From assembly GCF_004210375.1 (NCBI RefSeq), contig NC_134828.1:22808400-22872399 (forward strand): a DNA stretch of 64,000 nucleotides, read 5' to 3'. Numbering within the stretch: the stretch's first letter is position 1; every line of letters starts with the position of its first letter. The notes beneath the pieces were generated by a model. The model was not told the origin of the DNA and did no database searches. It worked only from the letters and a program-made list of their open reading frames with translations. The translations under genes were made by a program, and so were the position numbers. Below, piece after piece: positions 15,357 through 54,400 of this stretch. The DNA comes from Tachypleus tridentatus (Eukaryota; Arthropoda; Merostomata; Xiphosura; Limulidae).

Positions 15357-15404
15357 ATTGGCTGTAAGTAAAATAGCTTGCCAAAGTATGTAACACGCTG
15401 AGAA

Positions 15405-16080: not shown

Positions 16081-16347
16081 TCCCTCTGAGTTGGGGACGG
16101 CCTTATAGTTGGCGTACTAAGACTGAATCTGAAAGTTCAAGGCCTGTTACTGCAAAAATACGCTTCATACTTTTGGCCGTAGATGAACTATAAGTGTGAT
16201 TAGTCAAATGCTATTCGATTACACGACAGTAGTTCTAAAGCTGGTACTTGGTATTGTTGACCAGCTATTTTTCCTATAACCTTCAGTTTAAAATTAAGGA
16301 CGGCTATTTACAGACAACAGTTTGTGTAACTTTGTGAGAAAAAAAAG
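16081..16347 (+). repeat. SINE family D: family A-like body with a different head
   Basis: The 5' part differs from family A (TTGGGGACGGCCTTATAGTT ... AGTTCAAGGCCTGTTACTGC), but from about 16,195 it follows the family A body (GTCAAATGCTATTCGATT, GTTGACCAGCTATTTTTCC) and tail (AAATTAAGGACGGCTATTTA), ending in an A-run. One copy in the window. Confidence 0.65.
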
Positions 16348-17760
16348 GAAGAAGCAGAAATTAAAGAAAAAAACAAACAATTTTCATTCTTTTTCTGTTT
16401 TAGCCATTTCTCCTCTGCTTTATCATTTTCAGCAAATTTTCTATCTCAGTCCATGTATATATTAATATATTGTTGTACGTAATTATTTTGCTGGCGAGTT
16501 TTTTAAATTATTTTGTGAAACTAATTTAATTCTAGTCTGCCTAATTATAACAAGTTACTTTATTTCTTCTTCTAACGTTTCTATACACTTGAACATCTCC
16601 GTAAATATCCGTGAGCATAAGTTACAAATTACGTTACGTAACGCAAAATAAATCAACTTACTTGTACAAAGTAAACACGGTATATAACACATTCACCAGT
16701 TCACTCTCCGTTGGAAACTTTAAAATATTCTAAACTCTCTAACTAACCAAATGTCCCTTCAGGAAACATAATATTTATATCTCCGTTCCTGTGTCCTACA
16801 AAAGTTCGACCTCACATCCTTCAAACTTTCTGGGCGTTATACGCCTTCTAGTTAACAAATTACAACATTAAAAAGTATAGTATATAATAATGAAGTTCGG
16901 TCTAGATTCTAAATGTTGCAAGGAATTCTCTCATTAGGCAAGTTCCTTTTGATAATTTGGTGAAAACAAAGGTAACGTACAATCCATTTAATCATAACAC
17001 AAGTGTTATATTCCTTAACGTTCTACAAGTTGGATTAAAGAATGTTCACTGCAAGACATAAGTCCACAGTACATGCCAATACAACAGTTTTATTTACTTG
17101 CTAATTCTTCTGTATCTCTGTTTCTGTTGAAAGCACAAAATCAATATTGACAAAACTGAAGCTATTTTTTTTCTCCAAATATTCAAATGTAAAATGAATG
17201 TCAGTATCAGTTTTTAAACTGCTTGATGTTTTATAATATTAAACATGCATTTCTGTCAGTTAATATATAATAATACTTTAACTTATTAACAATGTTAATC
17301 CAAATGGCCAATAAATAAACTGTTATTACGTTTTAATTATGTTGTTTGTTCCAAGCTAATAGTTAAAATGTCTAAAACCTTTTGACAGCTTTTTAAAAAC
17401 TTGTTAAAGAGTACTTGAATTAATTTGACACTTCGAGGATAAATTCTAAGGATTCTTTGGTCTCTGGATCATTTTCAATTACACTGGAATGAGAAAAACA
17501 AGTAAAGTAAATACAGACTAATTGATTTTTTTTTTTTTTTTTACAGGATTGGAATTGTTAAAACTGGACGATAAACAAATCACAGAACGTAAATGCGTGA
17601 AAAAGGGAACATGATATATGTTAACATTTTCGTTGGCCTTTGCGATTATTGTCTAACTTACATTATGTAACATGTTGTTATAAAAGTGTATGTTGTGTTA
17701 ATGGCTGCAAGAAGATATTATTACATTTTAATTTCACATCTGTCGTGTAATAAAAAGCTC
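16348..17760. other. Upstream flank of the transgelin-type gene, nothing recognised
   Basis: AT-rich, with a poly-T run near 17,527-17,542. No open frame of note and no repeat copy I can name. Distal regulatory elements may be here, but the sequence alone does not show them. Confidence 0.45.
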
Positions 17761-17828
17761 TTATCTATTGTATACTGATCGTGAAGTGAGCGGCCATTCC
17801 TTACGCCCGAATTGGTTGAATCTTTTAA

Positions 17829-17836
17829 TGACGTCA
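17829..17836. promoter_or_regulatory. Palindromic CRE-like site upstream of the transgelin-type gene
   Basis: TGACGTCA, the full CREB/ATF palindrome, about 136 bases before the start codon and followed by a locally less AT-rich segment. It is a plausible proximal promoter element. An 8-bp site can occur by chance, and no transcription start is known. Confidence 0.4.
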
Positions 17837-17971
17837 TATGCTGACTTCTACCCACTGGTAGCGCGTGAAGTCCATATACTGTAAATACGCTATTGCTAAG
17901 TAGAGGGCAGGTGACGAGTGGTTAGTTTGAATTATTTATTTTCTTCTCGCTTTCTGTTACTAATTTTCATT

Positions 17972-18022
17972 ATGGCATATCAGGGACCTGCTTATGGTCT
18001 TTCCCGAGAGTGCATGTTAAAG
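17972..18022 (+). CDS. Transgelin-type gene, coding exon 1
   Basis: Start ATG and 17 codons, [17 protein letters not shown], ending at a strong AAG|GTAAGT donor in phase 0. The short first coding exon before a 3.4-kb intron is unlike the rest of the gene, so most 5' regulation may lie around it. Confidence 0.93.
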
Positions 18023-29028: not shown

Positions 29029-30250
29029 AATTAAAAAACAAAAATCAAACCTGATATTAAAATGTTTTAACATTATATAAAATTTCATATCCATTTGTTC
29101 TTTAGAGTTTGGCCAATTACATTATTTTAAATTAAAGAAGTCTGTGTGTATTTATATACATATATATATATATATATCTTGGGAGACATGCTAATAGTAT
29201 TACACTTGAGCATGTGAAATGTGTAACTAATATGCTTAACAAAGTTTACAAAAAGATAATGTTTGAAAGACTCAAGTATAAGACACATTTTTGTGAATGA
29301 AACGTGTTATTCACAGCAAAAAGGGTACAAAAACAAAATCTGTATTATATTGTTAGCAATCAATTATTTCAAAGTAGCCAAACAATTGTTAACCAACTCA
29401 TTTTTGATGCTTGAAATTTTATAACTGAGTTTTGAAGCTGGCAGATTTCTTATTTATTTATATTTCTAGTTATTGACAATGTGCGATTGCTAACCATAGG
29501 ATGTTTTAATTTGAAATGGTCAACTCAAGAAATTGTGGTAAAGTCATTATTTTCATTTAATTTGGAGAGAAAGGAAAACAAAAGAGCATGTCAAACCTGG
29601 ATAAAACCCAGTTTATCAGAATGGGGTATAAATAGAATTATTTAAAGTTTGTTTGTATCTGTTAGTGACTCTTACATTTGACTGTTTATCATTGTTTTGT
29701 TTTCTGTATGATGATTCGTCATCACTTTTTAGCCATCATTTTTAACTTATCACCATTTTTTTTTTAAATTACAAGAGGTGGGTTAGTGTTTTGTTTTTTT
29801 AGAAGTGCTTCACATTGATTTATTAATTACGCAACAGGTTTAGTGTTTTTAAACCTTCATTGTTCGATAGGTTAAAATAGTGGTGGGCTACAATTTTTAG
29901 ATTCCTATGGAACAGGAAGATGTTTATAGTATGTTCAATTTATATTCAAGCAGAAGGCAGTGTTATCATTTTCTGTTAATAACACTCAGTAGTGTGGTCA
30001 GAATTGTATATTACACATGGAAGTGTTGCAGTATTAACTTTAAATCCTTAATTTATCTCTACTTTCAGCTAGAATTATTTTCCTGATTTTCTAATAATTA
30101 TCACAATTCCTTATAAAACTCCACTTTTATTAGTTTTGTGGATAATAATGTTGTTTTGATTCATTTTCAGCCAGGGAGACGTAAACGTTGTCGGATGTTT
30201 TCACTGTCAGATGAGTAAATTGGGATTTTTGGCTGGGTTTAAGAAGCTAA
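29029..30250 (+). other. Probable 3' UTR and flank of the transgelin-type gene
   Basis: AT-rich sequence after the stop, with a TATATA microsatellite near 29,157. ATTAAA-type variants occur near 29,131 and the first AATAAA I see is at 30,251. The transcript end is not determined. Confidence 0.4.
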
Positions 30251-30256
30251 AATAAA
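30251..30256 (+). terminator. Candidate polyadenylation signal AATAAA
   Basis: Canonical hexamer 1.2 kb after the transgelin stop, followed by GAGAAAAAGGTCTGTGCGTT (a modest GT-rich downstream region). A nearer variant signal could be used instead. Confidence 0.35.
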
Positions 30257-31182
30257 GAGAAAAAGGTCTGTGCGTTTCTTGTCAAGTAAAATGAACCAAA
30301 GGAACCTCGAGTTGTTTGATTATAGTTTTTTACTGATAGAATAGTAACATCAACAAGACTTAATGACATGGGAAAAGTTGCACAAACTATAATGACTTTC
30401 AGACAAACCATATGCTGAAAATATTATGTGCATAAGAAAAATACAGTTCATAAAAGTGAAATAAGCTTACTTATTTAGTTTTGAAAACCCAGCCAACATT
30501 TTTACTAGTATTTGTTACCTCTGCTGAAAATTAACATTTTCTGTTTTGTTTTGAAATTATGTTTGGTGTCTAGTTATCCTGGGCTCATTTTGTAGAAGGG
30601 AATTTTGTTAACATAAGTTATAAACTTCTGCAGGTTATTATTTCAAAACTCTTGTATAGTGGTGGTTATTTTACTTTCTTTTTAGGTTCTAACTATTTTT
30701 TTCCTGATTTTGTTTGTTTGTTTTTCTTAGTTATTTGACTTGATTATGCACTAACACCAGGATTGCTGAAAGCCATTGTGTGCCTTGGGGAAGAGTTGGT
30801 GTTTGTCCCCACACCACCAGATGGGGTTAATGTTCCATACTTAGTTGATGCATTCCATACCCTTTTTTGCCTGCCACTCTCATTGAACTTCTGGTTGGCA
30901 GGTGGTACTAGTGAAATATCCCAACCCTTGTATTAACATTGTGAGAAGACTGTTATCACTATAGTGATAATTTTCATATATTTTTCCCAAATGCACCATT
31001 TCTCACACTTTAGCTTTGTCCCAATGAAAGTTTCTTTTCTCTGCTCTTCAAGCATTGGTATGAATTATAACTTGCTTACACTTGTTTTGTTACCCCACTA
31101 CACTGCAACTCAAACACAACAATAGAAAACACCAAGATATTAAGTAGGGAAACAAATATAAACAAAGGTAAAATCAAAGATG
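30257..31182. other. Intergenic, nothing recognised
   Basis: Includes a less AT-rich part at 30,745-30,930 (CCCCACACCACCAGATGGGG) that looks like a repeat remnant, but I cannot assign it. Confidence 0.4.
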
Positions 31183-31465
31183 CCTTAATCATACAGCAAC
31201 AAAAACCAAAGTTAAACCATTATAAAGGAACACCTTTATACCTATACTAATTAATAACCTAACATCCACCTGCAACGCCCTCTACAATTCCATACCCGTT
31301 TATACTCTTGCCCCTAAGACGTATCCATCAATGGTCACATTCAAACTCTCTCTTTCTTAATCTGAAGATGACCTAGAAAGATCAAAACATTGTTCTCTCC
31401 TCATCAATAAAGGTGTTAATACCCATACCAGCCATTTTGAGATATATTTTTATTTCAAGTGGGTT
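31183..31465 (+). mobile_element. Copy of the inverted-end retroposon family
   Basis: Shares with the minus strand of the 4,772-5,187 copy AAAGGAACACCTTTATACCT, CTGAAGATGACC/AAAGATCAAAACATTGTTC and the terminal AAGTGGGTTTTTCATCATC, in the same order. Also has TACCCATACCAGCCATTTT as in the 49,126 copy. The left boundary and any target duplication are not resolved. Confidence 0.65.
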
Positions 31466-31639
31466 TTTCATCATCAAGTAAGACTACAGTTTGGCTGACA
31501 ACCTTGCAGAGGTCTTGACTGAAAGGGTCTCTTTCAGTATGAAAGATCTTCACCACAAGTAATGGATCATTCAAGTTCTCGGGAGAGGATTGATCACACA
31601 ACTCGTACCTCTTCCTCCACTGTCTCTCGTACAGGTTGG

Positions 31640-33975
31640 CTTTCAACTCCCAAGAACCATCTGACGTCCAGCTGTTGAGATCAAGCTATCCAGGATCTTT
31701 GGTTCAAAGAGGCCAGAGTGCTTCAACTCCTTTCTGGAGGGATTTTATACCCAATTGTTGTTAGTACCAAAAAAGGCAGGCAGTTGGCAACTTGTCATTA
31801 ACCATTCTTGTATCAATAGCTTTCTCCAGCCTACGGATTTACCTTGAGTTTGTTGTTTTTTTGCTTATGGTGGCTCTTTTCATCCAGTTTATGGATGACA
31901 AAATTCAATTTCACCAATGTCTAATTTTATATTCCAATTGTGGAGTCTTTACTCTGTTCCCTCTTTTTGCATGACCCCAAGGTTTTCCAGTTTTGTGCTC
32001 CTGCATTTGGCTTTGCATCTGCCCTATACATTTTTTCTGAATAGTCAGATCTTTTTCTTGTCTCCTTTACTCATTGGGCATTCATGCTCACCATTACATG
32101 GACAGTTGGCTTCTTTTCACCCCTTCCTGCCATTCAGAAGACTTTACATTCAGACTTTGTTAGAGGAATTTAATACAAAAAAATAAAATATACTCTTCCA
32201 CACAGTATTTCATCCATCTAGAGGTGGTTTTCAATTCCAGGTTAATTTGGGCCAAACTTTCCATTGTGCTTTCAGGTCATGGAATGAGTACTTCTTTAAA
32301 AACAGTTCTCCTCCACTAGTGCATGTGGGTATGTCTGTTTTAGGGGTGTGGGAATCTTTGGGATCACTCATTCCTTTAGGTCAGGCTCACATGCAGATCC
32401 TTACTGGTCCTTATGGGACTAATGGAGCATTTGCAAAGATGATCTAAATTGTCTGGTGGTTCTGTTGGCTTCAATTTGCAAGATGTTTGCTGGTGATTGA
32501 ACAGGGTCAACATGACAGTAAGTGTCCCTCTATCATGCCCAGATCTAGAAATACATTTATGCTTCTCTCCATGGCTGGGGCACTTGTATAGAGAATATGG
32601 AATTCATATGCTTTAGGACAGAAGAGAAAATTTCTCTTCACATCATTCTATTAGAACTTCTAGTTGTCCAGTGAACTATGACTCAGTTTCTAAGATTGTT
32701 ACGAAGGAAGGGGGTAATGCTTTATTCTGGCAATTTCAGAGTTATCTCGTACATTTCAAAAGAAGAGAGTATGTTTGTGGGTCTAAACATCAGATGATTC
32801 TCCTAGATTGTCATGTTCTGGTGTCCCAACAGAGTTCTTCTCATAGGATGGATACTTTTTCCTCAAGGTTTTGTATCTTTTGAGTTCCCTGGCAGCACCT
32901 CATTGGCCAAGCCAGCCCTAGTTTCCAATTCTCTAATATATTCAGGAGTGTCAACCTCTTCCACCTTTCTGGTCATGTCTCTTATGTGAGCCTTGGATAA
33001 ATTTTTAATCTAGCAGTTGATGTCCTTTAACTTCACACCTGGTATTTATGCTGTCCATTGCACAATATTAGGGATTGACTTCTCAGGTGTCATCCTTATT
33101 GACATTTGTCATTTATCAATGTTCTTTGAAAGTTAATCAATGCAAATGGTTTACTTATCATCAATGGTCTCTCATCCCACTGAGTTTCATGCCTCAATTT
33201 TGACATGGTCATTTGGCAGAGGTGTAGTGCCTGTGGCTATTTCTCTGTATAAGACTGCTTTATCAGCTATTTTATTTCTAAGAGAAGAAAAGTTTCTGAT
33301 TCCAGGGTTTGTCATTACTTCTGAAATATTTTTGTGTTATCCATCCTCAACATCATTTCCAGATTCCTGATGAAGATGTCACAGTGGTTCACCATGCTTT
33401 ATCTCGCCAATCTTTCACTTAAGACTTATTTTTATCTGTTATTAGCTAGTAGGCATTGGCATTTGCATTTCATGTTTACAGGACTCTTTACAGTTCCATT
33501 TATATTTAATTTTATCCAGACATCTCTTTTCTATACAAAAATTCAGCAGCTAGAGAAGGAGATAAGATTTTCTCTCCTATTCATCACTCTTCCATTTCAC
33601 ATGGATATAACTGCTTGGATCCAGATCTTTTAGGCCCAGTTTGGGTTCTCTGATGTTATGGTATGTACTGAAATATTTTGGGGTCATGTTACTGTTTATC
33701 CAGTGGGATCTTATCATGTCATGTGACTTATCCCCTGCCACTCTCACAGGTTGAATTTATCAAGTTGTTCATATGGTTTATTCTGGGTTTCCATTGGAGT
33801 AGTAGAGACTACTTCAAGTCTCATCTCAATAAGCTTGAGATACCTCAATGTCCCTGGCAGCTCAGTTCATTACTTATTGGAGGAAGTAGTACAGGCTTGT
33901 ATGTGGATTACCCCTAACACCTTTATATTGCACTATGTGCATGATTTACTTATTTCCTCTTCAGATATGTTTTAA
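31640..33975 (+). mobile_element. Decayed DIRS-like tyrosine-recombinase retrotransposon
   Basis: Plus-strand fragments follow the DIRS order. Reverse transcriptase: GFYTQLLLVPKKAGSWQLVI then NHSCINSFLQ at ~31,738-31,840 (family form SRLFLVPKxxGxWRPVIDLSxLN), and FQFCAPAFGFASALYIFSE at ~31,985. Tyrosine-recombinase-like: NLSLKTYFYLLLASRHWHLH near 33,409 (family form LSLKTVFLxALASxxRxSE). The frame changes repeatedly and stops are frequent, so it is a pseudogene. RNase H and the catalytic Arg/Tyr residues are not clear. Boundaries and the split terminal repeats of DIRS elements were not identified. Confidence 0.75.
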
Positions 33976-35650
33976 CTGTTCCTCCATGGCTATTCTGTAC
34001 TCCCTGGCTCAATTGTAACAGATGAGTGACTTCATTTCTTTTGTGTTATTCTATTTATTTTCATGGACTCTCTAGTCATTATCATTTGGGTACCTCTCAG
34101 TGGCAAGTGTTGCCTGGACAGGTGTGTTTTTTTCCAAATCTACACAGCAGACAAATAAATAAAATTCTTAGTAACAATGAGATCTGTTGAGATGGGGCAT
34201 TCCACAAGACCATCTTAGTGCTTTCTGGGTTGAACACAATTATTCAGTACCATACATAATATACAACACTGGATTGCCACTTCTAGACTACCATGAGGAA
34301 AGCATAATGGGATTTTTTCCCTTCCCTTCCAACCCCTTTATTCAATAAATCTGGGTTGGTTTGCTTGTTTCAAATAGGGAATGTAGTTCACCTGTGGCAG
34401 TCTTTGGAGCATCATTCCTTGAGACCCTCCAATGTGAAATCTCCCATTTCTTCATAGTGAGACATGAGAGCCCTTACCGCTCCCAGTTTCTAGTTGCAGG
34501 AGTCCTGGGCAGAGGTCAGTTCCTCCTGAGTGATGTTTGAACACTTTGTTCTACTCCAAGAGAAGACTGCAAAGCTGGATATCCTCCCACCCATTACCCT
34601 AGATGAGTTTCCCAGATGTTTAGTAGGAGTAGGATTAGGCTATGTAAGAGCCTCCTATTAATTCCATTTCATAGATGTCACTTTGCCATCTGGTTGTTTT
34701 GAGCATAGTCCTGTTTGGTTCTTATGTTACTTTCCATGATCATGGGAAAGTCTCTTGAAGTTGTAATTCTATATGTAGAGCATCAAATCTTTGAGCCACT
34801 GGTTTAACTACTTGATTCCACATCCTCCTCTTAATTTATAGGCAGAGGTGTTGCCTTGTGTCTCAATTTTGAGAGTTAGGATTTAGGTTTGTAATCTGAG
34901 GTCAGATGATCTTTTGTTTTCTTCAGGTTGAGTGAGCCATGAATGGGCCCAATAATTCCAAGTTTGGTTTATTGCATGTCATGCTATTTAGGTTGGGAGG
35001 GGGGCTTGTCCACTTTTGTGTTGCATGCCTTCTCTTTGTAATTCAGGTGGCTCAACATGCAACATTATGTAACTCTCAGGCTGGTTATGGTTAATATCAT
35101 ATTACTGTCATCCAGTTGATATAACACTACAGCCCCCATGCCATAGTTGCTACACCTTAGATATTGCTTAGGATCCACAGCTTTAAAATTCCAATGATGA
35201 GAAAAGAGATCTCATCTTCACGGTTGGACTGGATGATTCTTGTGAGTGATATATCCAGAAGAGATGCATCTGGTATTTCAGGAGGAACTAGTTTTAGAAT
35301 AAATATCTCCTTGAATATTTTTTCTCCCAATGTTATGGTTTTGATACTGTGGCTATATAGCATTTACTGCTCATGTTTTAGATTTGGTATTATATGGGAA
35401 AAGAGCATACACGTATCTTTTCTAGAAGTGATGTGGACCCCAATACTGTGATATACCTCTTCTCAGTTTTGTTTTCTGTGTGGATCTTGTCCTCACTGGT
35501 CCTTCCACTTTGTCAGTGTGTTTTGAAGTTTACATTTTTTCTATGCTACTGATAATAGTTACCTTCATTCACACTTAATTCCCTTCCTCCACTGTGGCTG
35601 TTGTGTGGATCTGATAATTTTTCAAGACTCAAATAAGTGAATAAGAAGTA
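33976..35650. other. Possible 3' remainder of the DIRS-like element
   Basis: Composition stays less AT-rich than the surroundings up to about 35,640 and then drops, which suggests the element or a second repeat continues. No coding motif recognised; the overlapping open frames at 35,157-35,451 on both strands look fortuitous. Confidence 0.35.
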
Positions 35651-38600
35651 ATATCAGGGAGCTTATATACCAATCTAGTATAAAAGATGCATTGATGTAA
35701 GTGGAGAGTCATAAGATTAAAATCACTAAGGCATAATATAGTAGAGTATAAAAGACTAGAGAAAGTGAGGTATAATTTGTATCAATGTTAGATTGGCAGA
35801 GAAGAGAAAGTTTCGTTGGGATAAAGCTAATGTGCGAGAGGCAACAGGTGTTACCGGAAATACAGTTTTGGTGTAGGAAAATGTGAATGTATTTTACTTG
35901 TATGTGCAGTGCTGTAAATTATTGTTCTAGTTTTAATTTATGTGTAGTGCATTTAGTTTTATTCAAGCAACTTTTATATAAAATTATTAATTCCATTCTA
36001 TATTTTGAGACTTATACATAAAAGATGACAGTTTAAACTTTCTAGTAACTAATGATCTCCTTTAATAATACCTGACTTTGTTATTTATAACTGATTTAAT
36101 ACATAGTTTGGGCAGTATTATTATGTGATAACATTAGAATGTTCTCAATGATACTATGTTACTTATACATTCCATCAGTCAATGACATTTGTTTCATGAC
36201 TTCTTTTTCGGTCACACTTATGTGTCAGTTTTTGTTTTTGAGTAAAAAATAGTTGGTTTCTGTTGTATAGCAACCATATGTCAAAATATGATGATTGGCT
36301 GTGAAATTAAAAACAAAAAAAAAATGGTGAAAATTATTGGAGAGCTGAAAAAAGCCTTGCATAAATTTAGTACACACTAAAGGTACCTGAATAACTGTAA
36401 ACCTTCTGTGAAGTAAAGCTTAAATCATTTCTAAGATCTATTTTTATACCATCAACTCCATTCTCCTAAAGACAATGAATCATATTTTCTTAAGTTTTGA
36501 GCATCTTTGTATGGGTCACAACTCAAATAATAGTCAGATATTTCTTCACAGTGTTCTGTGCCTTATTGGAAAGAGTTGCTTCTCCTAACTTTGTAGAATG
36601 ACAATTCATTATTTCTCAGATTGTGCCTTACCTTTAAACTGCAATTTAAAAACAAGAAGGTTTTTAACTTGAATAATTAAGGATATTCTGTCTTATTTGA
36701 AGTTTACTTTTGAAATATTCTAATGGGCCTTTAGTAAATCTTTTATGCTGCCAAAGCAATAAAACAATGTGCTACTGTTTAACATTAAATGTGTTGACTG
36801 GTTTTAGTGCATGTGGTAGTAAAGGGTAGTGATGATGAGTGAACCCAGTTTTTCTATGTATATATGCATTTTTCACTCAAAGATATGGATATGTAGACAA
36901 GACCCACAACCAATGTGATTAATATCAGTTATGGTTTTTTCATCAGGTCAGAAGAATTGGTGATTGATTCACTTACAGAAGACAAAGAATATAAAGTAAT
37001 TTTGGGCAGTTTTGAATAATTTATAGCAGGATGCAATTTGTTAAATTTCTAGTGGGAGGTGGAAGAAAGATCAAAACTGGATGGGGGGGGGGGGATCCAG
37101 GGGGAGTACAAGTTCCCACAGCAGAGCCTGGAATATGGCCTCAACCACCATGAATTCATTGGAATTTAAAGGTAACACTGTGTTTAAAACTTTTCATTTT
37201 GTAATTGAACACAACTAATTATATTGCTTCTTTGAAACTTAAATTTTCAAAATAAACTTAGCATAAAATGTATCTTCTCTATGCTAGAAGGGGGAAGCAA
37301 AACTCTGTATTTAAGCAGTATATCCTGTTTCAAATGAAAAAACCAAAAGTATTAGCCATTATGCCTTTTGTTATTTTTACAAAATTACAACTACATTAGC
37401 TCAGGTAGTAGACTTTTTTTTTTTAATTTAGTAGAGCTTAGTTACTGTTTAGGAGGGTTTTTATTGTTTACTGTTGGGTTGCCTCCTGGCAAAGTGGTGA
37501 CCCCTTGTGAACCACATTTTTACGTATTTCTGAACATGGAAAGCATCAATGGGAGGACAATTAACCAAAAGTTTCTTGTGTGTTTAGGTACAAATTTTTT
37601 GCCCTGAAGCCACATTTCTCCTTGGCAGTAGATGCAGGAATTATACCAACAGAGTGATCAGCTCGTTTGGATTGTCTCCTAGGTGTGTTGTTATTTTCAT
37701 ATTTTCTGAACTGGTGTATGATAAGGGAGCTTAAAGAACGTATTTTTATGGATTTGCAGTTGTAAAATCTCAAGCTTTTACTCCATTCAAATAGTATTCT
37801 TTCATTTACTTCTGATGGTCTTGATAGAATGTCCAGTATGGGAGCATTTTCTAAGATACCATTTATTGATGTTGTCCAGCAATCATTATAATTGCTGATT
37901 GGAGAATTCTCCATATTTTTGTATTGTAGTTTCAGATGGTTCTTTGATAAACATCTCACTTAAATTTTTCTTCAGTGCTTGTCTTTCATTGTACTAGCAT
38001 CTGTTTTATTTGCATGTTTCATAACATGTAATGCTTTTACAGCAGTTTGAACCTTACTTTCATTCGCGACATCAGTGGAGTTCCTTTTCCTGAAGAAACT
38101 GTGACAAATACTTAAGGGTGTCTAGTGCAACCCTCATGATAATTAATTCCAATAAACATAAAGCTTTTTATTTTTTAACTTTCAGAAATGGTCCAATACA
38201 TTTTTTTTTGTTTTCGATAGAACATGCACATGAAGACAGCGAACTTGAACAATCATATTGTAAGTAAAAACAGAAGTTAGATGCTACATCCTGATGTTGC
38301 TTTTCATTTTGTGAAGGAAAAGATAGTCTTGATAATTATTAAAAATTAATGTCTGCAAATTCAGCACCAATTACATTTTATATCTGCAGTGTAAAGAAAC
38401 ACTCCAAAAAACGTCCATGATCAGAATTTAACATTTGTCCAATTTCATGTCGGAAGAGATTGTTGTAACGTTTGGTAAACTTTAAATGTGATTCTGTGCT
38501 AACGTTGGTCTTAATCTTTTGCTTCCTATACAGTTTGGTAACATTTCTGTACGGTTTAATTCTGTCTTGATTGCATGATGTTGGAACATTTTGCAAATGA

Positions 38601-39023
38601 TTAAATTTCCCATGATCACTTGCCATTTAGCTGTTTTAGAGTAGGGGTTCTCAGTTTGTAGTTTATGAAGTCCATTGATATACATATTTATAAAGCTAAT
38701 TTTGTTTTTCACTGATGTGACAACATAAAATGTCATAACTTCCCAACCCTCCCGAAGGTTTTGAAACTGTTTAGAGCTGTGGAATCTCCCCATCCTTCAG
38801 CTGCACTGATTTGCAAATTGGTTAAACATACCCCTAGATATGTAAACTGCATTAAAAAGATTATAACAAAGACTTGCTTTTTTTTCTGGTCTGAAAGAAG
38901 TTATACTTGAGTGTTAAATCATCACTTTCCAAAGGATACTTTATAAGTTTTAAAATGTTAAATTTTGTAAGTTATATCTCCCCCCCTTCTCCTTGATAAG
39001 AAATATTTATATATTAAGAAATA
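35651..39023. other. Intergenic, no recognised gene
   Basis: Contains a 13-base G run near 37,082 and two overlapping minus-strand open regions (37,561-37,959, 132 codons; 38,378-38,793) that I could not assign to any family. They may be an old transposon or chance. A T-run lies at 37,412. Confidence 0.4.
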
Positions 39024-39100
39024 TTTTCTTATAGCAAAGCCACATCGTGCTATGTGCGAGTCCACTGAGGGGAATCAAACCCCTGATTTAGCATTGTAAA
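39024..39100 (-). repeat. SINE family C, truncated
   Basis: Inverted: B box GGGTTTGATTCCCC, GACTCGCACATAGCACGATG and TGGCTTTGCTATAAGAAAAT tail on the minus strand. Confidence 0.85.
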
Positions 39101-39594
39101 TTGGTTAAGAAATAGTTACCAAGTTCCTTCAAAGTAAAACGATCATATTTTTGTCTTCAAAATTTGTTAATTTTCCATATTGCATTTGCCTTTGCTGCTG
39201 TAATTGTTTTAGCTAATTACTTTTGTTAACTATATAATTTAAAGCCAAATTAAATTATACTTAATATTTTAGCTTGGATGGATTATGCATTTGCAGGCTT
39301 TACTTGGTTTATGTACAATTTTGTATTTTTATTAAAATTTTCTTAAACAAATGAAACCTTGTATCATTAATTTTACAAAACATGAACAAACCACAAAAGA
39401 AATTCCATGAACTGTTTTTTAATTAAAGACATTTCTGATAAAGCAACAGTGAAATATTCAAGTGAACTAAAATTGGAAGTAGCATGACATGCAAGTCTCT
39501 TATCTTTCTTAATTGCAACCATTGTAGACTAAGACTGAAAGTACATTATTAAAGACTTCAGTTGTACCGAACTTCTCAATTTTTCTCAGTTTAT

Positions 39595-39676
39595 TGTTGC
39601 AAAGCTGCTAATGCTTATCCTAGGGATCAAATCCCAAATTTATGCATTATAAACCTTCAAAGGTACCACTGAGAAA
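39595..39676 (-). repeat. Old SINE family C remnant
   Basis: Inverted, strongly diverged: TTTGGGATTTGATCCCTAGG in the B-box place, GGTACCTTTGAAGGTTTATA in the head and GCAGCTTTGCAAC in the tail. Confidence 0.5.
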
Positions 39677-39699
39677 TACTTTGTTTTAATACAATAACA

Positions 39700-41970
39700 A
39701 AATTCTGTAAAACGAATAGAATGCGTCTGGCCTTGTAAGCCTCGAATGTTTTATTTTCGGAGTTCCACCTTTGTAATTCATCGGATCTGCTGTTATAAAA
39801 ACAGGGAGAGACAATTTCAATTAAAAACTCCAGTCAGATAAAATATAAAAACAAACTTTACTCTGTACACTCTGACTTGCATAATTATTTCTGTACAGTA
39901 TATCAGTTTTAAACTGGTCATTGTCACGTTCATCTTATCTGTACTTTCACAACATACAAACGAAACTAAATACAATTACATATAGTGAAAAATGAGCAAC
40001 TTAAAAAAAAATTAATGTATTTCTGCAAATGTGATCAACTCAAAATGCCCAAATATACAATTATAATATTCTAATTAATATTAACACTTAAAAGTCACAT
40101 TGAACTATTCCTTCCTAGTATTAATCAGGTGTACAAGTTATTAATACGTGAGCAACAATTTTCATATATTAAAATAAACTTAAAGATGGAATTTAATCCA
40201 CAAATCTCCCTCCCCATGGTGATAAAATATGAACACCATAGAAAACATTTTATCTGGACTGAAATTAAGTATTTAAATAAACCTAATTTTACAAAAACCA
40301 AGAAAATAAAAACCAGAACGTACAAGATTTCATTTTCTACTGCACCTGTGTAATAAACCTTGCAGTTCAAAACAGTTTTCTAATCATGTAACAACTAGAA
40401 AATTATTGATATAAAGATTTTGTTTTACACAGAATTTCAATTAATCCCATGAATATTATATAAATCAAATACCACAACAGTTTATTGTATACATGTGAAT
40501 TTATAGAACAAACTTTTTAAACATTATGATGGTCAAGAGTTACCAACTATGATTTATGAACTTTATAAACTAATTAAGCAGTTCACTTATAAGATTTTAT
40601 AATTTTAAATCACATTTAAATAATTCAAAATCATCAGTACTGTATCTCAAAAAGTTTATCACACATATGTACATATTAAAAGGTCAACACATTCACAAGG
40701 TTGTTAACTTGTAGTCATTTTAATTCAAGATTTCTAATAATATAAATACTACACTTACAGATTATGCACTGTATAACAAATCCCTCTTGTCAGGATAAAA
40801 AATATTCTACAAGGAAGAACCACTAACAATATTTTAGAAGTTATATTTGGATCATTTCAGGACTAATTGTTTTTCTATTTATTACACACTAGTGGTAAAA
40901 CCTTCAGGTATTAAAAATTGCAAACCAGTATTTTTGAAAAGCTGTACAGAGGTGTCTCAATCATAAATAACAGTAATTATGAAAGAAAGCAGTGTGAGAG
41001 TTCACAGCTTTTCACACAATAAAAAGTAGCAAAAAACAATGTGATGAGAGCTTGCTAATGTGGAATACAGATAATAGTTTAATGTGTAATATAGTTGTAT
41101 ACACGTAATTTTTCAAGAAACTTTTATAAGGAAGTAATGCACTGCATGTCAAAACTATTTTCTGTTGTAATTGGTATTTCAACCCAGCTACTTTTAAAAG
41201 AAACAAAACACAATTACAAATATGTTACCTATAATATTTGGAGGGAAGAACCTCCTTGTTTCCAAGATTAATACCATTAGTGTCTTGGCTAAATATATTA
41301 ATAAAACTATACGAGTAATTAAATGTTTTTGTTACACATTCTATTTAGCCTAAAATTTCAACCAGCTAAAAAATTATAAACAGAAGGCACTACACAACAA
41401 ATGGGAAGACCACATGTGATGTGCTCTATTAATTTTTAAAAAAACTGCATAGCTCAAACCGAAATAAGATTACCTTTCTAGTATTACACACATACACAAC
41501 GTACTCCGGCACGAAAACACTGGAGAGTGGAATACAACAAATGAAATAATTCTACAGAATGTTTCCTTTTGTACATACGTAATTCACTTGTTCTATAATG
41601 GTATTTTCAGAGAATTATTAAATATTTTGTTTTGCGCAAAGATAATTTACAATGCATTTTATAAACTAGTTGTTTCTTTTTATATTCAGCTCGTAGAAGT
41701 AACACTAGTCAACCCGTTTCACAAGGAAATAAAATATGGAATCACCATCACTATTTTCTAGAACAGCACGTAAATATGACAAATGATCACAACTTGGCAC
41801 CTGGAGACTAATTTGGTATGATTAGCATGAGCTGGAGACACTCCCACACTGAAATTGAGCCAAACAAATGATTGTAGTTTTCAGCAATGTGATTTTTTAT
41901 GTTCACAAGACTAACCACTTGGTGTGGAAACAACATAACCCTGTACACTATTTACAGAATCAGCAAAGAC
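39700..41970 (-). other. Downstream flank and probable 3' UTR of the CACHD1-type gene
   Basis: AT-rich and free of recognised repeats over more than 2 kb, unusual in this window and consistent with a long 3' UTR. The polyadenylation site cannot be fixed from sequence alone. Short open frames on both strands (40,125-40,370) are reverse-complement shadows without motifs. Confidence 0.4.
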
Positions 41971-42407
41971 CTAGTGGGTGTCCACAATATGCACCTGTGC
42001 ATGAGTTATATGCTCACTATGGGGTGGAACTTCTGGTATAACTGTTTGTGATGGGTCTCTGAATGATGAAATCCCACCAGGCCAATGTCTGTTGGTTTGT
42101 AACCCAGAGGACCCATAGTAAGATATAGGTGGTGTCACGCTGTGAGGGTGAGGATGTGGCACGGGCGACGAGGCTCGACTACAACTACTCATTGACTGTT
42201 GAGACGCTGGGACACGGTGCCAATCTTTTCCTATCAATAATGGCTCAAAATAAGGTGGCATGTGTTCTGAGTCCTCGTGGGGAGTCATGGTACTGTACCC
42301 ATGATCACTCTCACCACCTGCTGGCCTTCTATACGTACTGCTTGCACGGTAAGGAGAAACAGGAACAGCATTCTCAAAACTTTGCAGTACTAAATTGGAA
42401 TGAGCTA
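41971..42407 (-). CDS. CACHD1: CACHD1 last coding exon (cytoplasmic tail)
   Basis: Acceptor TTCTTCACAG|TA; starts with 2 nt of a split Val codon, then 144 codons and TGA. Contains [40 protein letters not shown], a His/Pro-rich run ([11 protein letters not shown]) and the ending [10 protein letters not shown]. The ESDHGYSTM block is the most CACHD1-specific segment; its Tyr/Ser/Thr residues are possible phosphorylation sites (inference). Confidence 0.93.
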
Positions 42408-45400
42408 CTGTGAAGAAAAAAAAAGGAGAAATTCCTTACTTTACTTTCAACACTGTTCACTGTCATTCTTACACAATTAACACACTGTTCACTGTCATTC
42501 TTACACAATTAACACTGTTCACTGTCATTATTACACAATTAACACTGTTCACTGTCATTATTACACGTTAACACACTGTTCACTGTCATTATTACACGCT
42601 AACACACTGTTCACTGTCATTATTACACGTTAACACACTGTTCACTGTCATTCTTACACATTAACACACTGTTCACTGTCATTCTTACACATTAACACAC
42701 TGTTCACTGTCATTCTTACACATTAACACACTGTTCACTGTCATTCTTACACAAATAACACACTGTTCACTGTCATTCTTACACAAATAACACACTGTTC
42801 ACTGTCATTATTACACACACTGTTCACTGTCATTATTACACTTACACACTGTTCACTGTCATTCTTACACATTAACACACTGTTCACTGTCATTCTTACA
42901 CAACACACTGTTCACTGTCATTCTTACACATTAACACACTGTTCACTGTCATTCTTACACATTAACACACTGTTCACTGTCATTTTTATATATTAACACA
43001 CTGTTCACTGTCATTTTTATATATTAACACACTGTTCACTGTCATTCTTAAATGTTAACACATTGTTCTTCATTCTTATACCTCAACACTGTTCAGTTAT
43101 TTTCACATATTAACACAGTGTTTACTGTCATTTTTACATATTAACACACTATTCACTGTCATTCTTACATATTAAGACACTGTTCACTGTCATTCTTGTA
43201 CCTCAGCTCTGTTCACTGTCATTTTTACATATTAACACACTGTTCAATGACATTTTTACATATTAACACACTGTTCTTCATTTTTATATCTTAGCACTGT
43301 CCACTGTCATTCTTACATATTAACAGAGTTTTCTTAAATTCTTTTAATTTAACACAATTCACCAGAACGTTTATCAAACATTTTGTAAACAACTTTGTTT
43401 TTGTTTGTAAATTTTTTTAACAGAAATAACTTAAAGGAGAAATGTGCTACACTCTTCCAACTAGCAGAGATAGTACTGTATACAAAGATAACACATTTAA
43501 GAAAAACTAAAACATATTATCTGTGTTCTATTTCTTTTTAATACAAGATAAAAAGCAAACCATAGGAAGCAATATGGGGAACACTAAAGAAAATATATAT
43601 ATATATATATCTGAAATTGTGCTTTTATGTTTGGTGTTTTTTGGGTCTGTTTTTACATTTACTCTTCAGTTGAATGCACTATTTATTGTATTTTGCCTTC
43701 ATAGATCAACTAATTTTGAATGCACTATTTACTATATTTTGCAGTGAGAAAGAGATAAACTAATTTTGAACGTACCATTTACTGTATTTTGCAGAGAGAG
43801 AGAGAGATAAACTAATTCTGAATGTACTGTTTACTTTATTTTGCAATGAGAGAGAGATAAACTAATTCTGAATGTACTGTTTACTTTATTTTGCAGTGAG
43901 AGAGAGATAAACTAATTTTGAATACACTATTTACTGTATTTTGCAGTGAGAGAGAGATAAACTAATTTTGAATACACTATTTACTGTATTTTGCAGTGAG
44001 AGAGAGATAAACTAATTTTGAATACACTATTTACTGTATTTTGCTGTATCATAGATCAACTAATTTTGAATGCACTATTTACTATATTTTGCAGTGAGAA
44101 AGAGATAAACTAATTTTGAACGTACCATTTACTGTATTTTGCAGAGAGAGAGAGAGATAAACTAATTCTGAATGTACTGTTTACTTTATTTTGCAATGAG
44201 AGAGAGATAAACTAATTCTGAATGTACTGTTTACTTTATTTTGCAGTGAGAGAGATAAACTAATTTTGAATACACTATTTACTGTATTTTGCAGTGAGAG
44301 AGAGATAAACTAATTTTGAATACACTATTTACTGTATTTTGCAGTGAGAGAGAGATAAACTAATTTTGAATACACTATTTACTGTATTTTGCAGTGAGAG
44401 ATCAAGTAATTTTGAATCCATATACAAACCAGGATGAAGTTCTTCATGAATTTCTGGTTCTTCTGGTTCATTATCCAGTTGAGCCATTGGAAAGGTAGCA
44501 TTAGGTGCTGAGGGCATATAGTGAGGTGATGTACCACGTTGGACATGGTGTCGGTAACAGTAAAAAGTTAAAGCCAGAACCAGGAAACATGCCATGATTC
44601 CACCAGCTACTGGACCAACTGGAGTGCTTTTAATAGTTACCATCTCTTCCAGTGGGAGACCTTCTGGCCAGAAACATGGATGGATTAATGTACGCCCTCT
44701 ACAGTTTGATATTCTAACTAGAAAATAATTAGAGCACTAAGCCTAATTTGCTTAGTCAGGACATACACAACATGAAAGGACCTTGAACTAAGAAAAATAA
44801 CACTGAAAGAATCATGGCAATGATTATATTTAAATTGTGTGGAAACACAGATTTGAAAACAAGTTTTTCAATCTGTTCTTCAGATCTCTAATACTTTACA
44901 TTTTGATCACTGTCCTGTGTTTTTATTCTATTTTTTAAATATAACATCAAAATAACATATTAAACTTACTTCTAACTAAATCTTGCTATATCTGAATGAA
45001 ACATTAGAACTCTGAAATCAAACTAGGAAGTAATGTTACAAAATATGCTAAGAATTTTTTAAAGAAAAACTGTTTTGATAACCATATTCAGCATGCTACA
45101 TGTGAAAAAATTATAACATGCATATTTCAAGTTGTCCTTTTCATTTCTCAGTATTTTAACCAATCTAAAATTACTAGACTAAAAAACAATTCTGAGTGGT
45201 TAAGCTTAAATGAGGCTTAGCTTAAAGATGTTTTTGTTCGTTGTTACCATAAGTTGATTTAAAATGTGGGTAAGACAGGTAATTTTTTTTTTTTTTTCAA
45301 ATTGCTTGGCAAAAAGTTTCTTTGAAATACCACCAGTTCTGTGATCCTTTAGACACACAACACTGTAAACCATAAATACAATTACTGTCAACACCTATTA

Positions 45401-48400
45401 TGTGAAGATAATTACAGAAATTTCAAATCCTTCCACAACACACACACTTGCTAGTTGATGCTGACACTCACTGAAGAAGTTGAATCGACTGCTGCCAAGA
45501 CTTTTATGTTTTTCCTTCTATTTCACCTCTTTGCCAAGTAAATCTACAAGTACTTCCATCCATGTGGATCAGTTTCCAATTGGTATTAAATCATTTTTTA
45601 TTCTAATCCTCAATCTGGGACAACATTTTTCAGCGTTGTGTTTACCATGTTGTTGATGTATGCTAGTCAATAGTAAACTTTACCCTGCTAGGTTGTGTAT
45701 TTATTAGCTTATTGTGAAGGTTCCTGGAGATGAGATAGGCTATGCTTTCAAACCTAAATGTATTGGTCAATCAGCATTTAGCTATCAGTTGGTAATCAAG
45801 TGATAGCCTTCCACATCACTACAGGCTGCATGAATATTTGAGAAAACAAATTTCAAAGTTGGTAAATTTTATTTATTAGATGGGTCGATATAAAAGAAAC
45901 AGAAACAAAAAAAACCCAGTCATAGTGCCAAAAAATCTCTCAGTTGTCCCCGATTTTAAAATGGTCGGGTTACGGCACACAAATATTTTTAGGCCTGTCC
46001 TGACCAAATAATTAGTACACAGTACACAGTATTCACAGGAAAAAACAACAACAATATATAACTGGATTTAATTCAACAAAAGTAAATATTAATAATAGTA
46101 AAAACATACCAATAATTTCGTCTGCATAGGGTGTCCTTGCACCTAAAACTCCCTCGAAACATTTTCGCTGTTCTACACAGTAGCTTTTCTTGAGCTGTGT
46201 CACACCATCAGTTTCCAACTGACACCATTCACACCCAAGTACACCAAAACATTCACTAGAAAAGTAATTATGGTCACTTTAAGAAACAGTATGGAGTTTA
46301 AGTGGTAACAATTCTTACTTGGCATAGAAACCTTAAGAAAGATCCAATGAAAGCAGGTAATCTGTACCACGCATTTATTATGTAATAAAGCAAACTGTAG
46401 GAAGGTCATAATAAAATAAATAACTTTATTTCTCAAAATGAACACATTCTTTAATCTTTGGAAGAAGAAAAATGCGTCGTAAATTTTTTCTGCATGAATA
46501 TTAATACAACAAAATTAAAATTGTCAATGTTTGATAATAACATTAAGACACACAGTCATAATATAAAGGCGTTTTTATTTTAGAATATATTTTCACTATC
46601 CTAATAAATTACATAAAACCAATGTGGTCTTCAAACCACTTAGTTCATTCAACTCTAAAGACATATGTTCAATCTAATATGAATAATATTTATTTAAGCA
46701 AAAGCAATTTAGATAAGAAGATAAATTAAATACATTATGAATATTCAAAATAATACAAAGTTAAAACTCCAAGCATGTAGATTTCACATAAAAAAATCAA
46801 AGTGGTCTCTTACCTCTCTGTCATTCGAGCAAGACAGTGATTTTCGGAAACATGATCCCAGTGAATCAAAATGTTTATTATCTACAAATGGCAATTCAGG
46901 ATCTTCTGGTTCCCATGGACAGCTAGGATTTCTATTATTAAACAAAAATGTAACAGTATATTTTTTCCCTATTTTAACAGATTCAAGGCTTAACTTTTAG
47001 CCTCAATGTTTTACATGCACAAAAATAATTTACTTATAATAAATTTTAAAATTCCCTGCACAATACATTAGCAAAATAACTTTTTTCATTATGCCAGGGA
47101 AATCAAATTTATTCTCTATGATTAAATGGTTTGTTTGAATGAAATAATAGCAGGTTCATTTCTCCTTGTCTTAATATCTGAGATTATTGGCCTATTATTT
47201 CTGTTCTAAAAAGTAATTTTTGTCCATGAGAAAAAACACATACAGAATGTATATCATTATTCCTATATACTTTTCTACATCTTAAACTTTTAATTTTTAC
47301 CTGCCATGTCCTAAACGATATGCCCTCAACTGTGGTTACTATAAAAATTGGTAGAAATGGTACTTTCCAAACGTGTTAATTTTCTAATTTTTCAAGATAG
47401 ACAAAAAAACAAAACATTCACAATAATTTTCAATTTTTAACAATTAAAAGTAATTTTTTAACCCTAATCAGCATCGTTATAACAAATACTCTCAAAGAGA
47501 GTGTTAACATAACCTTAAATGAAAAACTCTGCAAAATATATATTATTAAAATAAACTGCAAAACAGATTTCTTAGTTACTGTCAGACTTATTGCACAGTT
47601 ACCTTCATTAACACTCACTCCAATATCATCATTAAACCAACAAAATGTAACCTCAAATTACCAACAAAGTTTGTACCTTGACACCACTTCAGTAACATTT
47701 TTTTGTTTAATTAGAGAAATTTTCCTGACATACAACTCATAAAGAACATTTGAAAAAATGCTGTCAATACTACAGTCAATATCACCAATAACTGCTCTGC
47801 TTTCCTACAAACTTTTAATTAGCAAATAAGAAATTTTATTTTGTATTTTTGTTCAGCACTTTATATTGAGTTGTTTAATTGACAAAAAGAGCATAAATTA
47901 CTCAATATGACATAATATTTGCCCCCTACCAGTAGTGGAGAATATATATAAAGTCAGTAATTTAAGGGTTAAAATCCTTTTTACAAAAGGCTTGTTTAAA
48001 ACAACTAACCTATCTTCTTCATCCACAAGCTGACCTGTACACAAATTCATTTCAAGTGGACATTCACAAGGGCATTCACATTCTTTCTGTTCCATTCGAT
48101 GGCAGTTAAGACACAGTCTGTCCGTCTAGAAGTAAAGAGAACAGATCTAATCGCAATCATAACGAAGAATACGAAATGCGAAGTTCTGGTCTGGTCACTG
48201 ATAAACATGCTATCTTTGTGTAATAAGCCCAACATAGTTATCACAACCTAAATTTTAGCACTGTAAGCCTACATGCTTATTGTTGAGGACAAAATATTAT
48301 ACATCGTTTATGTACAATCAAATAAGAAAATGTATTAATATTTTTGTGAATAATTTATGAAAACATTACCTGATGATTTGTCTCTTTTTTTTTTAGTTAA

Positions 48401-51400
48401 TTTTATTTGAAATTAAAATTACTGTTTTATTTAAAGAACACATTCGGTATTAATTAATTTCAAAATTTGGGTTTTCATATTGGCAAATTTTAATAACTGA
48501 CCAGAAATCTGTGTAAAATTATAAAGAACAGTGGAGTGTCGTTTCTAAGAAATAAATCTCAACGTACCATACTACATGGACAAAAAGCTGTAACAGCCTC
48601 ACAGGTCTGGTTCACAATCCCAAGATACAAGTTGGTACCAGGAATAAGTGTGATCTGTAAGATTCAAAACTCTCTCAGAAACATACAAAGAAACACTAAA
48701 AACAAATGAAACTAACACACCCACATAATGTGCTGATAGTGGGAACATTATCAGCTATATTATGATACACAATTAATAATGTAAAAATTAGAATAATATA
48801 TTAAAGTCAACTTCATTAATTAAGCATAATGTCCCACTTTTACATTATGACATACATACACAAACTGTGTAACAAAATATGTGTTTACAGCATAATTACA
48901 TAACATGGCTAACCTACAAGTATTATGCAACAAAATATACCTGTCTTATTTCTACGTTATGACATACCTACAAGTATAATACCATGAAAAATGTTTATAT
49001 CTTGATTGCACATAAGGTCTTCATTCTGTATTATGAAATATTCAACTAACCTCAACACTTCTGGAACTAAATAATTAAAAAAAAACCATACTTTCATATA
49101 CTTGTAAACTGTCAGACTACAATATTTACTTGTAATTAATATACATAAAAACGGTTGACAATGACTGCAGAAGTTTGAAACGTTGTTCGCTCCTCTACAC
49201 AGTGCTTTATATACCCATACCAGCCATTTTTACATATATAATTTTCTCTAGAAGTGGGTTTTCTCGTCATCACAGATTATTACTTGTAATAATACAGCAT
49301 ACAATAATTTCTTAGGTGTCACCAATATAATGGTAAAAGACATTAAAGAATAAATACAACTTTGTAATTAATGTTTAAAACTACACATAATTAACAGTAC
49401 CTAACGATTAAAAAATCTTGACAGCTAACTTACTGAAACTTGAGAAAAACTACTAATGATGGAGCTTTGTGTTACTAGTAAAACACAACAACAACAAAAA
49501 GATAGATCTTTACTCACCTGGTACTTAGCACAATGTTCTCCTCGAACCAGGTTAGTCAACACCCTGTCTAATGCAACATCAAACTGGAAGAAATATGATA
49601 TTTTTATTAATACACTCTAATAGCTAAATTAGCAAGCTTTCAGCTTATTAATCCACGCATAATATTTCATTAGAATTACAGTAACATGTTTAGATTGTTT
49701 TCCTGAAGTAACTATTACTATTTTGTGAAATCTGAATGTTATTTAAAGCATTTTCATTAAATATACCTCTCTGTAGTAATATATATATATTATATATACA
49801 CATTATATATATTATATATACACCTTTATGGTTGAGTAGCTTTTTACAGCACACATTACTACATGAGCACATAACAACTGCCAACATTTAAGTATTATTT
49901 ACTTAGCAATCCCTTCATCTCACCTGATAAAATCTCTGTATCGTACGGTCACTGAAACTATTACACAATTTCTTCTTGACAAAGCCTTCATGATTTACAA
50001 TGTCGTTAGCTACCAAAGGTTCCTGAAACATAAATTATTGTTGGTTTAATGCATATAAGGAAAGGACTGAATCATAAAACATATATTTCAAGTTTATGAG
50101 ACAGTTCAATAAGTTCATAATGTTTACATCAAAACCTCTTGTAATTAATCCATTAAATTACAAAAATATCTTTTCTGACAAACGAGCTGCCTGCATATGT
50201 ATAAATTACTGGACAAATCAAAATTCAAGAAAATGATTTTTAAATAATACACTAGTTTGTACTGTCAATGAAGCCTAAAAAATTACCAACATACATAGTC
50301 CAATAAAGTTGTAACCCACACTACTTAATTTGTAACCATTAGTAATTCTCCTTAAAGTTGGGTTTTAGATGTTTTCTTTAACCTGTTCAGTGCCATACAC
50401 AAGATAACTTGTCCAAGCCGATCAGTTACACAGTGCCACGGACAAGTTAATTCGTTCTCAATAATACCTAACTTCAATGCTAGATGTCAGCACCATACAT
50501 CCATTTGACCTACTTACAAATTGTTTCACTTTCGATCTAAAATTGCATCATGAAAAAAGTTACAAAATGAAGAAGCATTAGAGTTGTTTTGTAGCAGCTG
50601 AAATACTTGGCAGTCAACAGGTTAAACACTTTGTTGTTTATGTGATAATTCCAGTTTTAACTCAAACTTTCAATTAATTGTTCTGGAAAACTGTAGCTGG
50701 AAAAATAATTCCACACACTTAAATGCTATATTCACATTTACAAAATAATATTGATTCTCACTGGCAGTTGAATATGACTCAGAAAATTCAACCTTGGTCT
50801 TTTTTGGTCAGAATGTTTGGTAGGAGTGTAATTTTAGATTCATTCAAAAATTATATTTTTCCTACTTTTATTCTTGCTAAGGTTAAAATTGTAAATTAGT
50901 AACTCAATAAACAGCAAATTAAAAACCTAATATGATTATAGAATAAACTGAATACTTCACATTCTGAAACATGTTGGCTTCTGTTATGGTACTTAAAATA
51001 AATGTGACAAAACAAAAACTTTTACACTTTCACACATATAACCCAAACCAGTATAAGGATAGAACACTAATATATCTACTGGTTCATAAATAACAATATT
51101 CAACCATTTTCAGTTAATTAAAAATAAACATGACAAAAAAGACGTTTTACACTTTCAAACATTTAACCCAAAACAGTATACAGATAGAATGCTTATATTT
51201 TAGTGTTACTTAAATAACAAAATTCTCGATAATTCAAAAATAATCAAATGTTTGTCTGAGATGTTACTATTAAGTTTTGAAGTTTTTATGATAAAGAATG
51301 GCTGTATTCTAAAACAGACATACCTTGTGTGTTATATGCTGTTGTTCAATAGGTCCATGTCCATTTGGCTCAATAAGTCCGGGGTGAGCTATCAAGTAGC

Positions 51401-54400
51401 CTTTATCATCCATGATGAAACATCTGATCGAAAATATTTCTCATAATTTTGGATGCCAATATATTACACTGAATGAATTATCCAAAAATGCAATTCCTTC
51501 AAATATCAAAGGTATATAGTACACCAACCACACATATTGTACATAAGCAAGAATCATATATAGATTCTGAAACAAAATACCATATTTTTCAATGTATAAG
51601 ACACACTCCTATTTTCAAAGCTATCTTCAGGGAAAACAATATTTTTCACAGTTATCATTTATTTGTTTGTTCAACATCAGTATAATTTTTGTATTATTCT
51701 TTATAATGCTTCAAAAGTTGTGTTGATAATAAAATAAAGCATTATTCATTCATTATTAAAACTTTCAAAACCTTCTTCTGCATCACTGGAAACAAGTTCT
51801 GAAAGTTCACTGTCACTTGTCCTCAAACAGTATCATCTTTGGTGACATTAAGGCAACTGCTCACATTACATTTTTTTAAATACCTTTGTTACAGTTTCCA
51901 CACTTTGGGAAAGAAAAAAAATGGTCCAGTACTTTTAAACGTTAGGGAAACAAAAAACTTACTTACTTGCCATAGAAAGGCATACAATTTTTGACTTTTG
52001 GTGTATAGGATGCACAGGGTTTTTGAGACCCTTTTTTGGGAGGAAAAATGTGTCTTATACACCAACAAATATGGTAAACTTTTCCAATTTCTCACAAAGC
52101 AAAGGATGCCATATTTTGTGATTTTTCTAATCAAAATTTCTTTCTACATTTTTCTAAAATATAGATTTAATGGTAAGATAACAAAAAGAATACAGCATTA
52201 TCCTCTACAAGCACTTAGGCAATTCATAAGAACTTTTAACAGTTTGTGTACATTATCTGACTTAATCATAGGGCATAAACTTGATACCAAACTGGTGTTT
52301 CTGTGACCAGAATACCATGTGGCATCAATGGAAAAGCATTCGGTAAAATCTGTCTTAATCTTAACTTCCTTAACCATAGATTAGCTCTGGTAACTGAAAC
52401 AACTAGTCCAATTCAAACAAGCTTCATTTTACTTCTGTATTTATTAACTGTAACGTTTTACCATCACAACCACAGAAAATAATGCACAAAACTGTTTAAG
52501 GAAAACCATTTTTTTTTTTTTGTAAAAATAGAACTGAATTAAACCCCCAGAAATCTTGATATACCATGTAATTCATGTACGTGCTATGATTCTGCTTGTT
52601 AAATTTCAAGATGATAATTTTCTTAAATTCATACTTAACTCACTCTATCCTTTACACATTGTGGGATGACACCCACTAATTTCAACTGACTGAGTAGTAA
52701 TATTATCCATGTCCCATGGCAGGATAGCAACTACTAATTCTGAATGAAGTGGTACTTAAACTTCTCGCATACTTTTTACACAGTGACACAACACTGACTA
52801 GTTTATATTAAAATAATACTTACACTACTCTATATTCTTCACACAGTGGAATAACATCCACTGCTTTGCACTTATTCTTTCACACAAAGAGATGACACTG
52901 ACCAATTTAAATTAAAATAATACTTACACAACTCTATCTTTTTCACACAGTGGGATTGCATCCACTAACAGTTTGTAGAAATAACCTAATGTAAAGTCCA
53001 TGCCCAAAACAGCTTTGATATTGTCAGATGAACTATGCATTGCTGCATGTCTGTTTTAAGATAAATACAAGCAAAAACTAAGGGATATAAAAATTTTAAA
53101 TAAAAAACAACAATTTCCTGTTTGGGGGAAAAATATCCAATTTACAAATTTAATTTTAAGTGCAACAATCATTAAAATATTTTCACACCACATCATTATT
53201 TTAAACATGATGCTGACATCCAAACTAGTATTTAAAATAAACAAAAATATTATTAAACCGAAATTAGACATGCAAAGACTGATAAAGCAAACAAAGATAC
53301 CATAAATGTCTTAAGGGTAAATAATGGTTCAGTACAAAATTCCAAAGTTTATGGTAAAATTCTTCAACATTTAATAACAATACTTTTGTGTTACGTTTAT
53401 CATATCTTGTGCAAATTGACAAATGATGCAAGTTCTTAATTACTTTAGAAGATATTATTTTTAACAGATTGTATTTAATGTTAAGCTTATGATTCATAAC
53501 TACTTGATACAAATGTGTTTGTCTGAAATTATCTCCCTCAGAATAATGTACAGTCATCAACATTGAACCTTTAACACAAGAACAACAAAAGCATTACAAA
53601 TCTTTTAATGAATTTGCCAAGAAAGAAGAGAAGTACTCACTTTCCCTCGTACACAGTGTGACTTAGCGTAACAATGTAGCCCGCTCCACCAACATCTAGG
53701 TAAGGTGCTGTTAGAACTACCCTCCCAGGATGTTCCACTGCTCGTCGAAACCACTCTCGCTTTGTTGGGTCGTATTTCTTGTCCACCACTGTTCCTGGAT
53801 AGATCTGGAAAACTCCATTAGTAGTGGCAATGAACCTAGAGAGAGAAAATTATTTATAACTACCAATTTATAAATAAAAACATCTTGATTTTTATTTTAC
53901 AGACCAAATTAAATTATAATGTATTTGCATTACTAGCTATTATTTTTAAAACTTCATTCTTAAACTTTCCTCAGAATTTTCTTCATAAGATTTAACCAAC
54001 AAATAGAATTACTTATGATTAGTTACTAAAATATTACTTTATTTGTGACTTCATAAAACAACATTCTTAACAAAAGCATACCTTCTCACAATGTACTTTG
54101 AAAAATCACTATTAAAGACCCTTTTCTTCCATTCTGGAGTAATTCGAACTGTTGACAGAACATCATTGCGTACTTCATTCTGTAGAAGATTAGAGTTTAA
54201 AGAAACTATTAAAATGTCAATTACTGTTTTTAAGATTATCAAATTATAAATGATATAAAATTCAACAAATCAAGACATAAGATTTATACATCCTTTTTTA
54301 AAATAACTTCTTCTATTCATTCAATAAATTTTGTTATTGATTCTGAAAATAATTAAATTATAATGTGTTATTATTAGATATTAGGTTGTCCAAAAATAAA

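Follow-up and report, generated by a model that had tools for sequence, protein, structure and literature searches.

In the assembly of Tachypleus tridentatus, the reading frame of CACHD1 is broken by one base in a Cys-rich exon (e5), and the assembled sequence suggests, with a probability of roughly 0.87, that the break is a consensus error in one of two haplotype contigs of one locus that were both retained in the scaffold. The contig in the window (the whole stretch of 64,000 nucleotides analysed) and a 44-kb contig 962 kb off would be the two haplotypes, that is, a false haplotypic duplication, each with its own uncorrected short length errors; one such error would fall in e5, and CACHD1 would be intact in the animal. 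An assembly error, one of two explanations offered by an earlier sequence-only reading, is the explanation supported here because the exon has an unbroken frame in a second copy of the stretch within the assembly.

The gene had been named as CACHD1 from the sequence alone, and this identity holds. The joined cache exons find CACHD1 as the top match among solved proteins (PDB ID 8s7c, E=1.2e-78), against only E=2.6e-05 for alpha2delta-1. The 8s7c chain (VWFA and cache domain-containing protein 1) we take to be a vertebrate protein. The Cys-rich part, with e5 supplied in the frame of the second copy, aligns over 129 residues to 8s7c 969-1097 (E=4.2e-43), gap-free and Cys on Cys. With a partial exon join as the query, the Pfam family dCache_1 scores 33.4 bits (cut-off 45) and MCP-like_PDC_1 scores 31.1 bits (cut-off 27). 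Like CACHD1 (PDB IDs 8s7c and 9eq6), the window gene has the sequence match followed by a membrane-helix-like stretch and a tail; unlike it, the window copy as assembled cannot encode the helix, while the second copy has an intact e5 frame. The features referred to below are as follows, in window positions and with the exon numbering of this analysis.

9804..10303, no strand: 500-N assembly gap; homology to the second copy begins at the third base past it.
10306..51877, plus strand: stretch with a second copy at C4:21856745-21898240.
51324..51423, minus strand: CACHD1 exon e1, intact in the window; the second copy differs by two one-base changes of opposite sign.
48010..48125, minus strand: CACHD1 exon e4, ending in phase 2.
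46814..46931, minus strand: Cys-rich exon e5 of CACHD1; it contains the frame break and is 118 bases long, against 117 in the second copy.
46847, minus strand: the base that the second copy lacks, a plus-strand G within CGG; the choice between the two G is arbitrary.
46110..46255, minus strand: CACHD1 exon e6, whose first codon is TGA in the broken frame.
44430..44663, minus strand: CACHD1 exon e7, in which a transmembrane-like stretch was recognised by eye.
41974..42372, minus strand: last CACHD1 exon, e8, intact in the window, with two frame breaks in the second copy; these are the bounds used for the counts, the 5' end being provisional.

A candidate exon at about 45507-45590 was dropped because the join of e6 to e7 stays in frame without it; the stretch sat inside the queries for the comparisons of the Cys-rich part with 8s7c and with a diverged CACHD1 copy described below (the C1 gene).

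The splice sites of e5 are clear (acceptor ataatag/A, donor GAG/gtaaga), and joining e4, e5 and e6 in the upstream frame places a TGA stop at the e5/e6 junction. The break claimed for this 118-base exon is therefore present, with the upstream and downstream frames one base apart. The sequence-only reading had located the crossover at a TTTT run and suspected a fourth T as the cause. The crossover does adjoin the run, but the fourth T was the wrong suspect: the run has four T in both copies, which rules out slippage there, and the differing base is the neighbouring G at 46847, a C on the coding strand. A real break would delete the membrane helix, as had been foreseen, because the helix-like stretch lies in e7, downstream of e5.

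The intact exon has 117 bases between phases 2 and 2, so that skipping e5 keeps the frame and joins e4 directly to e6. An in-frame join of 48010 to 46255, which the earlier reading had named, if supported by RNA-seq, as what would refute it, thus exists on paper, and within the range searched six other donor/acceptor pairs also keep the frame. Splicing around the break, whether by skipping e5 or by an alternative splice pair, or a programmed shift of the ribosome, is nevertheless hardly credible as the explanation, as neither the second copy nor the C1 gene requires anything of the kind, the skip would cost three Cys residues, and each of the six pairs has at least one site that is weak by eye.

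The genome, of 2.17 Gb, has matches to the coagulin family (PF02035) above the cut-off, as does none of 14 control genomes, and in two joined pieces 92 of 92 residues agree with coagulogen (PDB ID 1aoc), a protein of Tachypleus tridentatus; since coagulogen is not known outside horseshoe crabs, this points to a horseshoe crab, probably that species. Searching the animal's own genome with 601 bases around e5 returned three places: the window, the second copy, 962 kb away on the same scaffold and oriented alike, and the diverged CACHD1 copy on contig C1 (76% over about 130 bases). Of the 601 columns aligned around e5, the second copy is identical in 598; it has two mismatches and a single gap, which lies inside the exon, where the window has CGG and the second copy CG, and is put at 46847 by the alignment. 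Its contig, C4:21854091-21898247, is 44,157 bases long and has 500 N on either side. The main alignments between the two contigs have 98.9% identity over 33,044 columns and 96.1% over 9,434 columns, the latter with tandem arrays. Two tandem arrays, at 42450-43325 (31-base unit) and 43670-44401 (50-base unit) of the window, lie in the CACHD1 intron before e8 and give many off-register partial matches between the two contigs.

At one end the homology begins just past the window's gap, and at the other it stops 7 bases short of the end of the other contig. Beyond it, the window region 52400-55400 has no near-identical second copy among 40 candidates scored out of 2501, of which the 39 other than the window itself all match one dispersed repeat. 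This repeat (window 54379-55112, about 730 bases) occurs, 77-82% alike, in at least 39 other places, again among those 40 scored. The homology is bounded by contig ends and hence shows the pattern expected of a pair of allelic contigs from a single locus. A genuine, recent segmental duplication, with one or both copies decaying as pseudogenes, would account for two same-orientation copies 962 kb apart on one scaffold and for the frame breaks found in both. However, on both sides the homology stops within a few bases of a contig end and not in the interior of a contig, and most of the single substitutions in exons are silent (4 of 5), so that we regard such a duplication as very unlikely.

Parts of the left 2.65 kb of the second contig are found again at three places (the boundary of that contig itself, the beginning of the window's contig, and C4:22650678), a pattern that suggests a tandem repeat at an assembly breakpoint. 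The part that overhangs the window's gap (C4:21854091-21856745) matches C4:22650678-22653313 in reverse with 90% identity, and the latter, inverted, may be the true neighbour of the window's contig.

Which copy carries the odd base in e5 can be judged from two other genes. The second copy reads through its 117 bases in one frame; the C1 gene has EPCFENHCLARTTE in a single open frame at the e5 region, and the solved CACHD1 reads QCVNSRCNQRM at this site in a gap-free alignment to the query in the second copy's frame. Because the frame of the second copy is that of both the C1 gene and the solved CACHD1, the odd base is assigned to the window copy. The other exons point the opposite way. In e8 the window frame is continuous and matches the C1 gene save for a three-residue gap, whereas that of the second copy has two breaks; in e1 the window reading agrees with 8s7c, and the two opposing one-base changes of the second copy lie some 500 bases from the end of its contig. 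With the C1 gene and 8s7c as judges, one of the five frame-changing coding differences falls in the window and four fall in the second copy.

An apparent stop (CF*SEG) ahead of the membrane exon of the C1 gene lies, in our reading, within an intron, since the acceptor that we inferred for e7 of the window comes after it. The same gene includes, at L044:1492-2755, a tandem array of 14 copies of a 90-base unit, 98% alike, each unit containing the final 12 codons of an exon of CACHD1 (SFSDRTVQRFYQ) together with its donor site, so that an exon end and its splice site are repeated into the intron.

Leaving out the tandem arrays (42390-43400 and 43600-44428), we counted 336 difference events between the two copies: 142 single substitutions, 132 plain one-base indels, which are thus nearly as many, and 62 others. 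Frame-changing events number 5 in 1278 coding bases (3.9/kb) and 170 in 38454 non-coding bases (4.4/kb), or 127 in 35454 non-coding bases (3.6/kb) without the block at 19-22 kb; a one-base difference at the e1 donor (51323), one base outside the exon, was counted as non-coding. The exons would be expected to hold 5.65 such events at the non-coding rate and 4.6 without the block, against the 5 observed. Since the coding density is close to the non-coding one, the length changes appear not to have been purged from exons, small as the coding numbers are. The block itself (window 19000-22000) has 67 difference events in one count and 72 in another, 38 of the 72 being one-base indels, which is denser than most of its surroundings, and is perhaps a poorly corrected patch.

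The substitutions behave differently. Non-coding sequence has 146 substitution events in 38454 bases; the exons have five single substitutions, of which four are silent, and the only amino-acid change is E to G at 46154, where the C1 gene also has G. Within the limits of these small coding numbers, the substitutions look like true, selected variation and the length changes like unselected errors, presumably of an assembly from long reads. The density of substitutions is patchy, with none in 25-28 kb and 37 from 49 kb to the end, a pattern as between haplotypes.

One-base indels occur mostly in homopolymers, 84 of 138 being in runs of at least four and 19 in runs of two. The extra base of e5 belongs to a run of two (CGG/CG) and not to the longer homopolymer that is usual, though not required, for a consensus error. 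We also considered indel errors linked to CpG, and the signal was too weak: CG is within reach of 8 of the 132 plain one-base indels (6.1%), against 3.6% of random 5-mers. It is within reach of 5 of 7 complex one-base changes and of 30 of the 142 single substitutions.

As the substitutions between the contigs look real, some of the length differences may be true alleles, and the break in e5 could then be a heterozygous null allele, an extra base in one CACHD1 haplotype with an mRNA that is truncated before the helix and probably degraded. The contigs do resemble haplotypes with true substitutions, and the stop would fall at the e5/e6 junction, with introns downstream. Against this, frame-changing densities that are alike inside and outside exons are unexpected for true alleles of a conserved gene, and if the length differences were real, the other copy would also be a broken allele, at e8. 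We consider a null allele of this kind improbable; that one segregates and is tolerated, either through skipping of the frame-neutral 117-base exon or with the diverged C1 copy covering for it, seems quite improbable as well. A consensus error in e5 remains the preferred reading.

The single-copy CACHD1 exons upstream (roughly 0.9 kb, here lettered a to h) showed no second frame break at the junctions that could be settled. Using sites picked from several listed, the phases agree at b-c, c-d, e-f, f-g, g-h and h-e1. For a-b (donor 61676, acceptor about 61039) none of the acceptors listed gives an in-phase join, and an exon has likely been missed; we suppose the same for d-e (58935 to about 56000), the one other junction outside those with agreeing phases. 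The exons near 54080 and 53835 seemed to have a second break between them, which disappeared with the donor AAG/GTATGC.

There are precedents for both parts of the proposed error. A vertebrate assembly study (PMC8081667) describes haplotype contigs misplaced in the primary assembly, in many cases with gaps between them, and short consensus indels, the most frequent errors prior to polishing, which cause frameshifts; it also reports a gene that kept its frameshift errors since the sequence of the other haplotype attracted the polishing reads. Alleles wrongly assembled as paralogues are described in a further paper (PMC10548655). The case described here resembles the false (heterotype) haplotypic duplications of the vertebrate study (PMC8081667) in having near-identical contigs on one scaffold, gaps between them and short indels that break frames. 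It differs in that the contigs are 962 kb apart and not adjacent, and the likeness is drawn from assembled sequence.

The main importance of the finding is for annotation, as gene predictors will truncate or split CACHD1 at e5, and the 44-kb second contig will contribute a false partial paralogue. Such a paralogue matters where gene copies in this lineage serve as evidence for rounds of genome duplication (PMC7815833). CACHD1 is described (PMC7615972, PMC6231325) as a partner both of Wnt receptors and of calcium channels, and a null allele, if true, would be a natural loss-of-function case for such a partner.
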